64,000 bases of DNA from Solobacterium sp. (lineage in GTDB: Bacteria > Bacillota_I > Bacilli_A > Erysipelotrichales > Erysipelotrichaceae). Under the pieces are notes generated by a model, which was given only the letters and a program-made list of their open reading frames with translations, did not search any database and was not told where the DNA came from. Position numbers and translations under genes: made by a program. Of the stretch, positions 39,421-44,551 are shown one piece after another (positions within the stretch are counted from its first letter, which is position 1; each line of letters begins with the position of its first letter). The DNA lies in the NCBI GenBank assembly GCA_017510405.1, contig JAFWNG010000020.1, positions 1-64,000 on the forward strand, given 5' to 3'.

Positions 39421-39897
39421 TTATTTGTGATATGGTTCATTCCGCAGAATGCGGAAAGCCCGGTAGATCTGTTCCAGTACAAGGATGCGGCAGAGCTGAT
39501 GCGGGAATGTATTCGGAGACAGTTTCCAGCGCTGATCCGCTCTCCGGATCAGTTCCGCACTGACGCCGAGCGACCCGCCGATGACAAAGTCGATCTTACT
39601 GCGGGAGCGGTTGTACAGTTCCTGAATGTTCTGCGCAAGCTGTTCGGAGTCCATTTCCCTGCCGGCAAGATCCAGCAGGATGACATATTCATCGTCTCTG
39701 ATCTGTTTCAGAAGGCTTCTGCCCTCTTTGATCTTTACAAGTTCGTTTTCGGCGGCGGAGTTTGTTTCCGGCGCCTTTTCATCGGGCGCTTCAGTCACAG
39801 TGACTTTCTCATATGCGCCAAGACGCTTCAGATACTCCTCACAGCCCTCCCGCATCCATTTTTCCTTCAGTTTTCCGCAGGCGATGATGCGTATCAT
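39421..39897 (-). CDS. rlmH: 23S rRNA (pseudouridine-1915-N3)-methyltransferase RlmH
   Basis: A 158-residue SPOUT methyltransferase with the knot segment DFVIGGSLGVSAEL, LSPNTFPHQLCRILVLEQIYRA (abridged) and the ending NEPYHK, all RlmH hallmarks. It overlaps the upstream HtrA-like gene by 4 nt, so they are coupled. rlmH after htrA and walJ reproduces the end of the Bacillus walRKHIJ-htrC-rlmH locus. Confidence 0.97.
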   Translation of the reverse strand: MIRIIACGKLKEKWMREGCEEYLKRLGAYEKVTVTEAPDEKAPETNSAAENELVKIKEGRSLLKQIRDDEYVILLDLAGREMDSEQLAQNIQELYNRSRSKIDFVIGGSLGVSAELIRRADQRWKLSPNTFPHQLCRILVLEQIYRAFRILRNEPYHK

Positions 39898-40946
39898 TGC
39901 AGCACCACGCTGACGGAAGCGGACGCGCCTTCCCGGATAATTCCAAACTGGACGGTGTCGCCTTCCTTATGTGCATACAGACGCGTGCGGAGATCGAATG
40001 CGTCGCGGATCGTTTCGCCGTCGATCGTATCCAGTACGTCGCCTTCCTTCAGGATGCCGTAAGCCGCGGAATCCGCCAGTATATTCGTGATCAGCACGCC
40101 GGTGGTCATATCCAGACGGATATTCCGGGCGCTTTTCTGATAAGCGCGCAGGGTATTGATACTGCGCACGGTCGTTCCGAGCGCCCCACGCTGTACGTCC
40201 CTGCCTTCTTTGAGCTGGGCATAGATCAGACGCAGCTCATTGACGCTGATCGCATAACCCATGCTGGGAGAACCGCCCATCGGGGTCGTAACGATCATGC
40301 CGAGTAATTCCCCGGAAATATTCAGCAGCGGTCCGCCGATGTCGTTGGACGTAACGATGATGTCGCTTTCGATGACATCACACGTCCACGTTGACGACGA
40401 ATTCAGCTGTCGTTCGCCCGGTGTGCCGGCAACGCCGAACGTGACCATGGCGCTTTCGGTATCGGTGCGCCGCCCGCCCATGGCGATGACGTATTCACCC
40501 TGGGAGATAAGGCCGCTGTCGCCGAGCTTGATCGCCAGCGTGTCAAACGGCGGCTCAAGACGCAGAAGTCCTACTTTTGCGGTCTTATCACGGCCGACCA
40601 CGGTCGCCGGCAGCTCGATTCCGCTGTCAAAGCGCACCGCGACAGTCTGGGTATTCTCCAGAATATCGGAGCCGGTCAGGATATAGATCGCGTTCTCTTC
40701 ATTGCCGTAAATAATGCCGGAAGAACGTCGTTCGCTTTCTTCCGTCTTTGCGACGATCGTGACGACGCTTCCCTGGGTATTACTGATGACTTCCGTGACA
40801 TCGGTGGTGAAGCCGTTGACAGTGTTCTCATTGACGGCAGGACTGTTTCCTGAGGCTCCATCGTTGCTGATCTGGATCAGACTAATACTGAGTATGAGAT
40901 TCCAGACCAACAGAACGGCTAACGCTGCCGGGATCCATTTCTTCAT
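39894..40946 (-). CDS. Membrane-anchored HtrA-like pseudoprotease with PDZ domain
   Basis: A 350-residue protein with an N-terminal transmembrane helix (about 6-26), a trypsin-like HtrA fold (about 48-245) and a C-terminal PDZ domain (about 255-348). All three catalytic positions appear lost. The TNNHVV position reads TGSDIL (His to Asp94), the TDLAVLK position reads AKVGLLR (Asp to Lys124), and GNSGGP reads NDIGGP (Ser to Ile203). It may therefore be a scaffold or chaperone. The position after walJ and before rlmH is that of the wal-locus HtrA. The start at 40946 follows GAGAGGATTTGGAA. It overlaps walJ by 65 nt and rlmH by 4 nt. Confidence 0.85.
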   Translation of the reverse strand: MKKWIPAALAVLLVWNLILSISLIQISNDGASGNSPAVNENTVNGFTTDVTEVISNTQGSVVTIVAKTEESERRSSGIIYGNEENAIYILTGSDILENTQTVAVRFDSGIELPATVVGRDKTAKVGLLRLEPPFDTLAIKLGDSGLISQGEYVIAMGGRRTDTESAMVTFGVAGTPGERQLNSSSTWTCDVIESDIIVTSNDIGGPLLNISGELLGMIVTTPMGGSPSMGYAISVNELRLIYAQLKEGRDVQRGALGTTVRSINTLRAYQKSARNIRLDMTTGVLITNILADSAAYGILKEGDVLDTIDGETIRDAFDLRTRLYAHKEGDTVQFGIIREGASASVSVVLQ

Positions 40947-41694
40947 TTCCAAATCCTCTCTGTATTCGTTCAAACTGTCCCGCTGCCGAGACGATCAGCT
41001 GTTCATTGACCGGGACGCGTTCCTCCAGCAGACGCTGTGAGGATACCTGCAGCGCCCGTTCGCGCGTGTTGGCTTCCTGGGAGATGTGCGCCAGTATGAT
41101 ATGCTTCGTCTTCGGCGTTACGATCTTTGTCAGTATCGCGGCACAGTCTTCGTTGCACAGATGTCCGTCATCGCCGCAGATGCGTGCCTTGAGATACTGG
41201 GGACGCCTCGTCTGCATCAGCATTCCCACATCGTGGTTGCTTTCCAGAATAATATAGTCCGCATTGTGCAATAGAGGCATATAGCGGCTGTTCACATAGC
41301 CGGTATCGGTAATATAGACAAGTTTTTCCTGTCCGTTTTCAAAGATATATCCGGTCGTATTCAGAGCGTCGTGCGACAGTGCGACCGGAGTGATCCGCAG
41401 TGAGCCGACCGTAAAGATCTGCAGCGGCTGGACATGGAATGTCTCCGTATCCGGAAGCTCGACCGGCGAATAGACATAGCGGTCGCTGAACGCCCGCAGC
41501 TGGGCAATATGATCGGAATGATCATGCGTGATCAGCAGGGCATCGATCTCTTCCATCCGGATGCCGAGTTCATGAAGCTGGTTCACCAGGTATTTCTTCG
41601 TACTGCCGCAGTCGATCATGATCAGTGTCTGATCATCCCGGATCATACAGCAGTTTCCCTTGGAACCGCTGGCAAGAAGCGCGTACTCTAACAT
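40882..41694 (-). CDS. walJ: Metallo-beta-lactamase fold protein WalJ/YycJ
   Basis: A 270-residue MBL-fold protein with the HDHSDH metal motif (about 57-62), ALLASGSKGNCC at the N-terminus and a later LSHDALNTTGY region, as in YycJ (a 5' exonuclease family member tied to cell-wall and DNA repair). It starts 7 nt inside the M23 peptidase gene and extends 65 nt into the HtrA-like gene. The walRK two-component genes are not next to it. Confidence 0.9.
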   Translation of the reverse strand: MLEYALLASGSKGNCCMIRDDQTLIMIDCGSTKKYLVNQLHELGIRMEEIDALLITHDHSDHIAQLRAFSDRYVYSPVELPDTETFHVQPLQIFTVGSLRITPVALSHDALNTTGYIFENGQEKLVYITDTGYVNSRYMPLLHNADYIILESNHDVGMLMQTRRPQYLKARICGDDGHLCNEDCAAILTKIVTPKTKHIILAHISQEANTRERALQVSSQRLLEERVPVNEQLIVSAAGQFERIQRGFGNEEMDPGSVSRSVGLESHTQY

Positions 41695-43184
41695 GGCAGG
41701 AATCCCTGGCAGGCATCGTGCCGTGTTTCATCGTCTTCGTAGATAAAGAAGTGCACATGCGGACCAGTAGCGGCTCCGGTCATGCCGATATGACCGATGA
41801 CCTGTCCCTTGTCCACCACCGTGCCGACTTCCAGCTCGCTTGGTTCACGCATATGCCCGTAGTAGGTGTGGAAGCCGTTGTTGTGATTGATCACGATATA
41901 ATTGCCGTTGATATAGTGATATTCGTTCTTTTCCACAACGCCGCGGTCCGCTGCGTAGATATCGCCGTAGGGTTCATACTCGTTGACGATATCGGTTCCC
42001 CGGTGACCCCAGTAACAGCCCCATCCGCACGATATGATCGGATTGTTTACCGGCCAGCGGTACGTACCCGTACCGACATCCGGCAGTTCCATCGTTCCGA
42101 CCGCGACAACTTCGCTGACGGGCTGACGCATATCGACGCTGGATTCCAGATAACCGTTGACCAGAACGCCGTTGATCCATTTTTCCGAATACAGGGAGTT
42201 CCGGGAACCGGCTTCTCCCACCTGGCGTACCTCTGTCTCATTGACGAGCAGAGAAGGATCTTCGGTATAGATCGTTTCCGGATAGATCGCCTCTTCCCGG
42301 AGCGTTTCCTTATATACCACGACATTGACCGGTGAATTGAAATAGGTAATGCACAGTTCCTGGCCTTCCTCCAGAACCTGATCCACGCTTTCGATCTTAT
42401 CCCGGTTGATATTCATGACCTGGGTAGCGGAAAGACCGTAGTTCTTCGTGCCGACACCGGCAACGGTATCATATTTCTGCACGGTGTAATACTCTTTGGT
42501 CGTATTCGCACCGTATTCGAGATATTCCAGGACTTCCTCTTCCGTACGCATGATCTCGGAAGGCGCCGCGTAATCTTTGTACATCGTGATCGTTTCCGAG
42601 ATACTGATGCCGACTTCACGTGTTCCGTAGGAACTTAACAGCGGCAGGGAATACCCCTGCTCGATGGAAGCCAGCACATCCGGATCGATGAAGTATGTGA
42701 TGAACGTCTGCATCGCGTTTTCATAGATCGTTTCATCCAGCACATAGATCCGGGCAAAGATATCCGTGTCGTCCGCAAAGCACACCGCGGTCGCCCGCAG
42801 CGCGAACAGTTCGTTATCCAGAAGATAATTCAGAATATTCTCATCGATATCCTCATATTCCAGAAGGCTCTTTTCTTCTGTGATATAGATGTCTTTTCCG
42901 CAGATGCAGGAGGAATTCGGATAGTCTTTCTCATACTTTTCCCGGTAGACCGAATCCAGGAAACGGTCCAGTCTCTGCCTTGATGTCAGCACACCGACCA
43001 GATTTCCGCGGTCATAGAGCTTGTATATGGTCTTTTCGGATGCGGAGATACCGGTGATCTTCTGTTCGAACATCCCCGCCGCACTGCTTTCAAAGGCAGA
43101 GGACGAACGGGAAGACGGCATGAAAAAAACGATCAGGATCGAACATAGAAAACATGCGATGACCATAAACGTTTTTTTCATCAT
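41688..43184 (-). CDS. M23 peptidase with LysM and G5-like domains
   Basis: A 498-residue membrane-anchored protein with an N-terminal transmembrane/signal segment (about 5-22), an unassigned region (about 30-225), LysM (about 231-282), a G5-like segment (about 285-365) and an M23 endopeptidase domain (about 375-482). The zinc ligands are H394 and D398 (HRGTD) and the HVH pair (476-478). It should cut peptidoglycan cross-bridges at the cell surface. It precedes walJ with a 7-nt overlap and follows dnaB by 14 bp, so it lies in a long yybS-gdpP-rplI-dnaB-M23-walJ-htrA-rlmH string. Confidence 0.88.
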   Translation of the reverse strand: MMKKTFMVIACFLCSILIVFFMPSSRSSSAFESSAAGMFEQKITGISASEKTIYKLYDRGNLVGVLTSRQRLDRFLDSVYREKYEKDYPNSSCICGKDIYITEEKSLLEYEDIDENILNYLLDNELFALRATAVCFADDTDIFARIYVLDETIYENAMQTFITYFIDPDVLASIEQGYSLPLLSSYGTREVGISISETITMYKDYAAPSEIMRTEEEVLEYLEYGANTTKEYYTVQKYDTVAGVGTKNYGLSATQVMNINRDKIESVDQVLEEGQELCITYFNSPVNVVVYKETLREEAIYPETIYTEDPSLLVNETEVRQVGEAGSRNSLYSEKWINGVLVNGYLESSVDMRQPVSEVVAVGTMELPDVGTGTYRWPVNNPIISCGWGCYWGHRGTDIVNEYEPYGDIYAADRGVVEKNEYHYINGNYIVINHNNGFHTYYGHMREPSELEVGTVVDKGQVIGHIGMTGAATGPHVHFFIYEDDETRHDACQGFLPC

Positions 43185-43198
43185 GACAGTTTTTACTC

Positions 43199-44551
43199 CT
43201 ATTCTGCAGTCTGAATGGTAAACAGAGCATTCGTCGCGGCTTCAAAGCCGAGGAAGATGCGGCCGATCGCACCGTTTCTCTGTTTGGCGATATTGATCTC
43301 GAGACGTTCTGTCCCGGACTCTTTTACGGCTTCTTTCAGTTTATCGTCATAGTAGGACTCACGGTACAGCATCATGACGATATCGGCATCCTGTTCGATC
43401 GATCCGGATTCACGCAGATCACTCAGGATGGGTCGTTTGTTTTCTCTCTGTTCAACGCTTCTGGAAAGCTGGGACAGAGCAATTACAGGTACTTCCATCT
43501 CACGGGCAAGTCCCTTGAGATTACGGCTGATCTCGGAGATCTCCTGCTGGCGGTTGTCGGAGCTTCTCTTTCCGCTTCCTTCGATCAGCTGCAGGTAGTC
43601 GATCAGGATCAGCGACAGACCGACCTCATTTTTCAGTCTTCTGCACTTGGAGAAGATCTCGGACACCTTGATGCCCGGCTTATCGTCGATATAGATCTTT
43701 TCTGCCTTGAGGTCGCTGGCCGCTTCGTTGACCTGGTTCCATTCATCCTGACGAAGTCTGCCGGTGCGCAGTTTTCCGCTTTCCACTTTGCTTTTCATGC
43801 TCAGAAAACGCATGGAAAGCTGTTCCGCTGTCATTTCCAGGGAAAAGATGGCAACTGCTCCGCGCGGATTCGTAGAAGCAACGTGTTCTGCCAGGTTTAG
43901 CGCAACAGCGGTCTTTCCCATGGAAGGACGGGCAGCCAGAATGATCAGGTCGCCGTTCTGCAGGCCGTGCGTCATATGATCGAGATCGACAAACCCGGTG
44001 CGCAGACCGGTAACGTCGGAATGGTTCGCTTCCATCATGCGGATGGTGGCGACCGCATCGTTCATCAGATCGGCGGATTTTTTGAATTCCCCTGCCTTAC
44101 GGTCACGGGATACCGACAGCACCGACTTTTCGCACTCATCAAGATACTGGTCAATATCCGTCTGTCCTTCGTAGCCGTCCGCCGCGATCTGTTCCGCCGC
44201 CCGGATCATCCGCCGCATGATCGCCTTGTCATGAACAAGCTTGACATACGTGCGCGTCATGGCGCTGGTGATGGCAGCTTCGGTCAGTTCAGTCAGATAC
44301 ATACTGCCGCCGACCGCTTCCAGCATATTCATATCGGTCAGCCATGTCGTGACCGTCGTCAGGTCAACATGCTGGCCGTGATCATACAGATCCCGAATTC
44401 CGCGGAAGATCTTCTGGTTGACTTCATTGTAGAAGTCTTCTTCCTCCAGGCCTTCCTCGATCGCTGTCTGGGTCGCCCCGTACAGCAGCATCGTTCCGAG
44501 AAGACTGGCCTCCGCATCCAGTGCGGAGGGCATTTCCCGCTTACCGCTCAC
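43199..44551 (-). CDS. dnaB: Replicative DNA helicase DnaB
   Basis: A 450-residue hexameric helicase with the N-terminal domain (PSALDAEASLLGTMLL) and a RecA-like domain with Walker A (ARPSMGKTA), the LILIDYLQLI Walker B and ALSQLSRSVEQRENKRP. It unwinds DNA at the replication fork. It overlaps rplI by 4 nt, the conserved rplI-dnaB coupling. Confidence 0.98.
   Translation of the reverse strand: MSGKREMPSALDAEASLLGTMLLYGATQTAIEEGLEEEDFYNEVNQKIFRGIRDLYDHGQHVDLTTVTTWLTDMNMLEAVGGSMYLTELTEAAITSAMTRTYVKLVHDKAIMRRMIRAAEQIAADGYEGQTDIDQYLDECEKSVLSVSRDRKAGEFKKSADLMNDAVATIRMMEANHSDVTGLRTGFVDLDHMTHGLQNGDLIILAARPSMGKTAVALNLAEHVASTNPRGAVAIFSLEMTAEQLSMRFLSMKSKVESGKLRTGRLRQDEWNQVNEAASDLKAEKIYIDDKPGIKVSEIFSKCRRLKNEVGLSLILIDYLQLIEGSGKRSSDNRQQEISEISRNLKGLAREMEVPVIALSQLSRSVEQRENKRPILSDLRESGSIEQDADIVMMLYRESYYDDKLKEAVKESGTERLEINIAKQRNGAIGRIFLGFEAATNALFTIQTAE

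Follow-up and report, generated by a model that had tools for sequence, protein, structure and literature searches.

An HtrA-derived pseudoprotease between walJ and rlmH in a genus of the Erysipelotrichaceae

The HtrA-like protein encoded between walJ and rlmH in the window (the whole 64,000-nt stretch of DNA that was analysed) had lost the catalytic triad throughout its genus, whilst the fold was kept and the gene was under purifying selection. By these features it is classed as an HtrA-derived pseudoprotease, and it is very probably a conserved, functional protein whose role is non-catalytic. As the triad and the activation machinery were lost and the sequence was nevertheless closely guarded, its job very probably needs binding, not cutting. 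HtrA pseudoproteases are already known from magnetotactic bacteria and plants; what is new is that the loss is fixed throughout a genus and has recurred at a single, conserved place in an operon. No report of an HtrA pseudoprotease in the Erysipelotrichaceae was found in a literature search, with most subscription journals outside its reach.

Gene, locus and fold

The pseudoprotease gene (39894..40946, minus strand; 350 aa plus stop) was located in a genome of 3.27 Mb in 46 contigs. The closest named records were ‘Solobacterium sp.’ and Erysipelotrichaceae MAGs, the nearest being a sheep-rumen MAG with 86 % protein identity. The 5′ end of the gene overlapped by 65 bp the 3′ end of walJ (40882..41694, minus strand; metallo-β-lactamase fold), and its stop codon overlapped the start codon of rlmH (39421..39897, minus strand) in an ATGA, in agreement with the tight coupling to both genes described in a first-pass annotation of this DNA. 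This is the YyxA position of walJ-linked HtrA proteins. Directly upstream of walJ (40882–44551) were an M23 peptidase with a G5 domain (41688..43184, minus strand), which overlapped walJ, and dnaB; the neighbouring genes were identified from the sequence and Pfam. The order M23/G5–walJ–htrA–rlmH was conserved across the genus. The complete walRKHI operon was not part of this arrangement: walR, walK, walH and walI were all absent from the walJ–htrA–rlmH locus in the window, and no protein in the window's genome reached the cut-off of the WalK model, so that the ‘wal-locus position’ assigned earlier holds for walJ only.

Both domains expected of an HtrA protein were detected by Pfam, with scores of 51.8 bits for Trypsin_2 (cut-off 27.6) and 42.9 for PDZ_2 (cut-off 27). 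The AlphaFold model (mean pLDDT 89.5, pTM 0.81) comprised an N-terminal membrane helix (residues 4–31; 40854..40937), which was conserved, a β-rich protease domain of trypsin fold (residues 61–236; 40239..40766) and a PDZ domain (residues 250–350; 39897..40199), all on the minus strand, and its comparison with DegQ, DegP, DegS and HtrA structures using VIA-align gave Z scores of 27–32. By descent, the protein thus belongs to the HtrA (S1C) family, and the intact trypsin fold and PDZ domain noted in the first-pass annotation were upheld. The membrane anchor noted there was likewise present, as was the Gly-Gly-Pro motif (residues 204–206; 40329..40337, minus strand) directly past the nucleophile position. 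The protein resembles the HtrA/DegP/DegS proteases, including the walJ-linked HtrA of Firmicutes, in its TM anchor, trypsin fold and single PDZ domain, but differs from them in the loss of the triad, the oxyanion-hole Gly and activation-cluster residues, and in that walR, walK, walH and walI are not at its locus.

Loss of the triad and activation machinery across the genus

In an alignment with structurally solved DegP-type proteins, the catalytic His, Asp and Ser were matched by Asp94 (40665..40667), Lys124 (40575..40577) and Ile203 (40338..40340; all minus strand), exactly as first read from the translation, and the same alignment columns were His, Asp and Ser in intact relatives. A walJ-type HtrA was found in 67 of the 70 species in the genus sample, two of them as fragments at contig ends, leaving 65 full-length proteins for comparison. 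None of these 65 kept His/Asp/Ser: His was absent from position 94 in every case, Asp occurred at position 124 in 28 and Ser at position 203 in only four, all of which were without the His. The triad positions showed 42 different spellings, indicating that no fixed residue had taken the place of the triad. The loss was therefore not limited to this strain, as it would have had to be to speak against the first-pass reading; nor did an intact triad lie at other residues, the other result that would have done so. The agreement of 65 species ruled out both an assembly error and a defect peculiar to one strain.

Three of the 70 species were without the full gene, two of them with small genomes (G149 and G300; 1.4–1.5 Mb). 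Between walJ and rlmH, G149 had only a 101-aa fragment with the TM anchor (L148, 1196–1498) and G300 a stop-riddled remnant (L149, about 2000–2165), whilst in the third, G012, neither a walJ-type HtrA nor rlmH was found in the genome.

Columns with at least 85 % conservation among intact HtrAs that were no longer conserved in the genus were concentrated in the catalytic and activation machinery. Besides the triad, they included the oxyanion-hole Gly (201), positions 178 (DegP R187) and 193 (DegP Q200), the LD-loop Pro (159; DegS P161) and L1/L2 residues, these equivalences being derived from the alignment and from counting along the DegP sequence. DegP R187 and Q200 and DegS P161 are activation-cluster residues (PMC11642142), and positions 201, 178, 193 and 159 were replaced in most members of the genus. 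The mean entropy of 16 active-site and activation columns, a set picked after the data had been seen, was 2.24 bits in the dead proteins compared with 0.29 in the intact ones. There was little difference in the remaining protease domain (2.02 versus 1.75) or in the PDZ domain (1.94 versus 2.08).

Other features were retained or had become fixed. In the R253-x-x-L256-G257 loop of the PDZ domain, the three named residues were kept in 64, 61 and 54 of the 65 proteins, respectively, and fold glycines were also retained. Position 159 was occupied by a genus-specific Arg (40470..40472, minus strand) in 60 of the 65 dead proteins, compared with Pro in 36 of the 44 intact HtrAs at the same position in the operon, and Asp107, which was uncommon in intact HtrAs, was found in 61.

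Catalytic losses in the family and possible partners

The HtrA between walJ and rlmH had an intact His/Asp/Ser triad in most of the other Erysipelotrichaceae genera that were sampled. In the sister family, rlmH came directly after walJ, and any intact HtrA was encoded elsewhere; direct positional orthology with the sister-family HtrA was set aside on account of this adjacency. The window's genus formed a single clade, apart from all intact proteins, in the tree of the HtrA domain (99 %), and again a single clade (100 %) in a tree built from the nearby genes rlmH, walJ and M23/G5, which cannot be misled by fast HtrA evolution. This neighbour-gene tree requires that catalysis was lost independently at least six times in the family. 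Separate losses were seen in G175, whose congeners G215 and G445 were intact, in G389, whose congeners G423, G446 and G468 were intact, in G280, in G407 and in the genus of G391, G425 and G448, the last possibly shared with G411.

It is possible, and is put forward tentatively, that, besides catalysis, the walJ-linked HtrA of the Erysipelotrichaceae serves a second function, important enough for the protein to have been kept through six or more independent losses of its catalytic activity. In the window's genus, the protein would then represent a distinct pseudoprotease family with fixed features of its own (LD-loop Arg159, Asp107 and PDZ Y269/K271) and might be a receptor or regulator at the cell surface that is new to Firmicutes. 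Non-proteolytic work of HtrA is hard to separate where HtrA is active, and this genus and the several separate lineages provide a natural experiment: what the walJ-linked HtrA does without catalysis should be traceable through the residues still conserved. Unless this is recognized, dead walJ-linked HtrAs will go on being labelled as serine proteases by annotation pipelines.

Outside the window's genus, the walJ-linked HtrAs of the Erysipelotrichaceae showed further triad losses, of which several were independent, at L118, L121, L248, L249, L250, L257, L259 and L260. The same-position HtrA of G398 (L240) had His/Asp/Thr, with Thr for the nucleophilic Ser as in MamO, and was left out of the count of losses. 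In a further group of genera (L116, L120, L122–L124, L251–L254 and L265–L272), M23/G5 directly preceded htrA and rlmH, and walJ was not found there.

A second, intact HtrA was present in 35 of the 38 genus genomes tested (E < 1e-110); the remaining three (G009, G010 and G028) were only 69–74 % complete. Redundancy with this second HtrA fits as the circumstance that permitted the catalytic loss. The HtrA between walJ and rlmH would have lost catalysis in the ancestor of the genus, with the active HtrA remaining elsewhere, and would have kept its use as a binding module outside the cytoplasm, anchored in the membrane. Its TM helix would hold the protein there, the PDZ domain, to judge from its retained motif, may recognize clients by their peptide ends, and the trypsin fold could offer a rigid surface for binding or assembly. 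Most likely, the pseudoprotease would capture or present envelope clients, or modulate the active HtrA or the M23 peptidase, without cutting. The non-proteolytic, membrane-anchored nature predicted in the first-pass annotation agrees with the genus-wide triad loss and with the conservation of both the TM helix and the fold, whereas the ‘scaffold’ role given to the protein there is a guess. For any one specific partner, client binding by the PDZ domain with a regulatory output is rather less likely than not.

One candidate partner is the active HtrA of the same genome, on which the pseudoprotease might act in trans, either activating it or joining it as an inactive subunit, in the way that MamO serves MamE. 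MamO and inactive copies of MamE are HtrA-derived pseudoproteases of magnetotactic bacteria (PMC4794232); MamO needs no triad of its own to promote MamE-dependent proteolysis, and such pairing of active and inactive proteins arose repeatedly in these bacteria (PMC4794232). They are kept beside an active HtrA-type paralogue (PMC4794232), as in the window's genus, where the intact second HtrA co-occurred in all near-complete genomes tested. Moreover, the LD loop, which touches the neighbouring subunit in DegS (PMC11642142), was fixed around Arg159 rather than drifting. An action in trans is nevertheless unlikely. With only about 27 % identity between the pseudoprotease and the intact paralogue, and separate clades for the two, there is no default expectation that they form mixed trimers. 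The residues of the activation cluster through which subunits signal to one another were lost, and two genomes that had lost the pseudoprotease still kept the intact HtrA. The likeness to the magnetotactic proteins is also limited: MamO has a di-histidine metal motif on its protease fold (PMC4794232), whereas the window protein is without it and contains a single His in 350 aa; MamO has a C-terminal transporter domain where the window protein ends in the PDZ domain; MamO has Thr for Ser with His and Asp kept, whilst the triad of the window protein is eroded throughout; and phylum and locus are different. The plant AtDeg16 and the second domain of AtDeg7 are HtrA relatives without triad residues and are proteolytically inactive (PMC3473262); they share the triad loss with the window protein, but are eukaryotic, of separate lineage and have no tie to a walJ–rlmH operon.

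The other candidate is the M23/G5 peptidoglycan peptidase encoded two genes upstream, which the pseudoprotease might regulate by binding instead of proteolysis. The gene order conserved across the genus speaks for such a relationship, as does the control of the cell-wall amidase Ami3 by mycobacterial HtrA (PMC12735335), but that control was described as degradation (PMC12735335), of which a dead protein should be incapable. M23/G5 and walJ persisted in G149 and G300 despite the loss of HtrA, which shows that neither needs HtrA, and some relatives (L109/G247 and L261/G386) had the HtrA without M23/G5, making this role quite improbable.

Selection on the pseudoprotease gene

The selection to which its gene was subject supports the reading of the protein as functional. 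Dead proteins were compared in 15 close, non-overlapping pairs; outside the walJ overlap (residues 24–350), their dN/dS was 0.03–0.22, with bootstrap upper bounds of at most 0.30. Values for the protease domain alone were no higher (0.01–0.19 in the same pairs). Between the window and its nearest relative, dN/dS (NG86) was 0.10 for the pseudoprotease, compared with 0.07 for rlmH, 0.055 for dnaB, 0.10 for M23/G5 and 0.18 for walJ; the intact HtrA paralogue gave 0.18 in this pair, so that the pseudoprotease was the lower of the two. Purifying selection on the gene is of ordinary strength. An alignment with relatives and an estimate of dN/dS had been proposed as checks in the first-pass annotation; the former showed the triad loss to be genus-wide and the latter came to about 0.1.

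That annotation had also argued from the coupling to walJ and rlmH that the gene was not a decaying pseudogene. The conclusion stands on dN/dS of about 0.1 and on the genus-wide triad loss, but the coupling argument is weak, as G149 and G300 lost the gene body in this same context, and synteny was dropped as proof of function for this reason. A decaying pseudogene, held open only through its overlaps with walJ and rlmH, is extremely improbable: the catalytic residues do drift freely and the gene body is gone from two relatives, but there were 65 full-length ORFs, one per species, without stops, selection was evident outside the overlap, new residues such as Arg159 had been fixed, and overlap failed to protect the gene in G149 or G300. 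Nor, despite the Ser203 kept by four members and the Asp124 kept by 28, is it at all credible that the protein is a protease whose active site is displaced or non-standard, as His94 was never found, the oxyanion-hole Gly was mostly lost, and a search of a 33-protein alignment for intact triad residues elsewhere revealed no invariant Ser, His or Cys and only one Ser at 90 % conservation (174), which is Gly in the window protein, leaving no visible substitute triad.

A third trypsin-like protein (Trypsin_2) was encoded in the window's genome (G000:C33:88530-88922; L189), with no PDZ domain detected. In the membrane helix of the walJ-linked proteins, Trp15 was present in 65 and Asn16 in 62 of the 65 genus members, compared with 38 and 34, respectively, of the 44 intact same-position HtrAs; the overlap with the walJ frame confounds part of the conservation of residues 1–16, though both residues were also common in these intact relatives. 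None of the HtrAs sampled from other loci had Trp15, whilst Trp15-Asn16 was nearly invariant in the dead walJ-linked copies, and the pair suggests a specific membrane contact.
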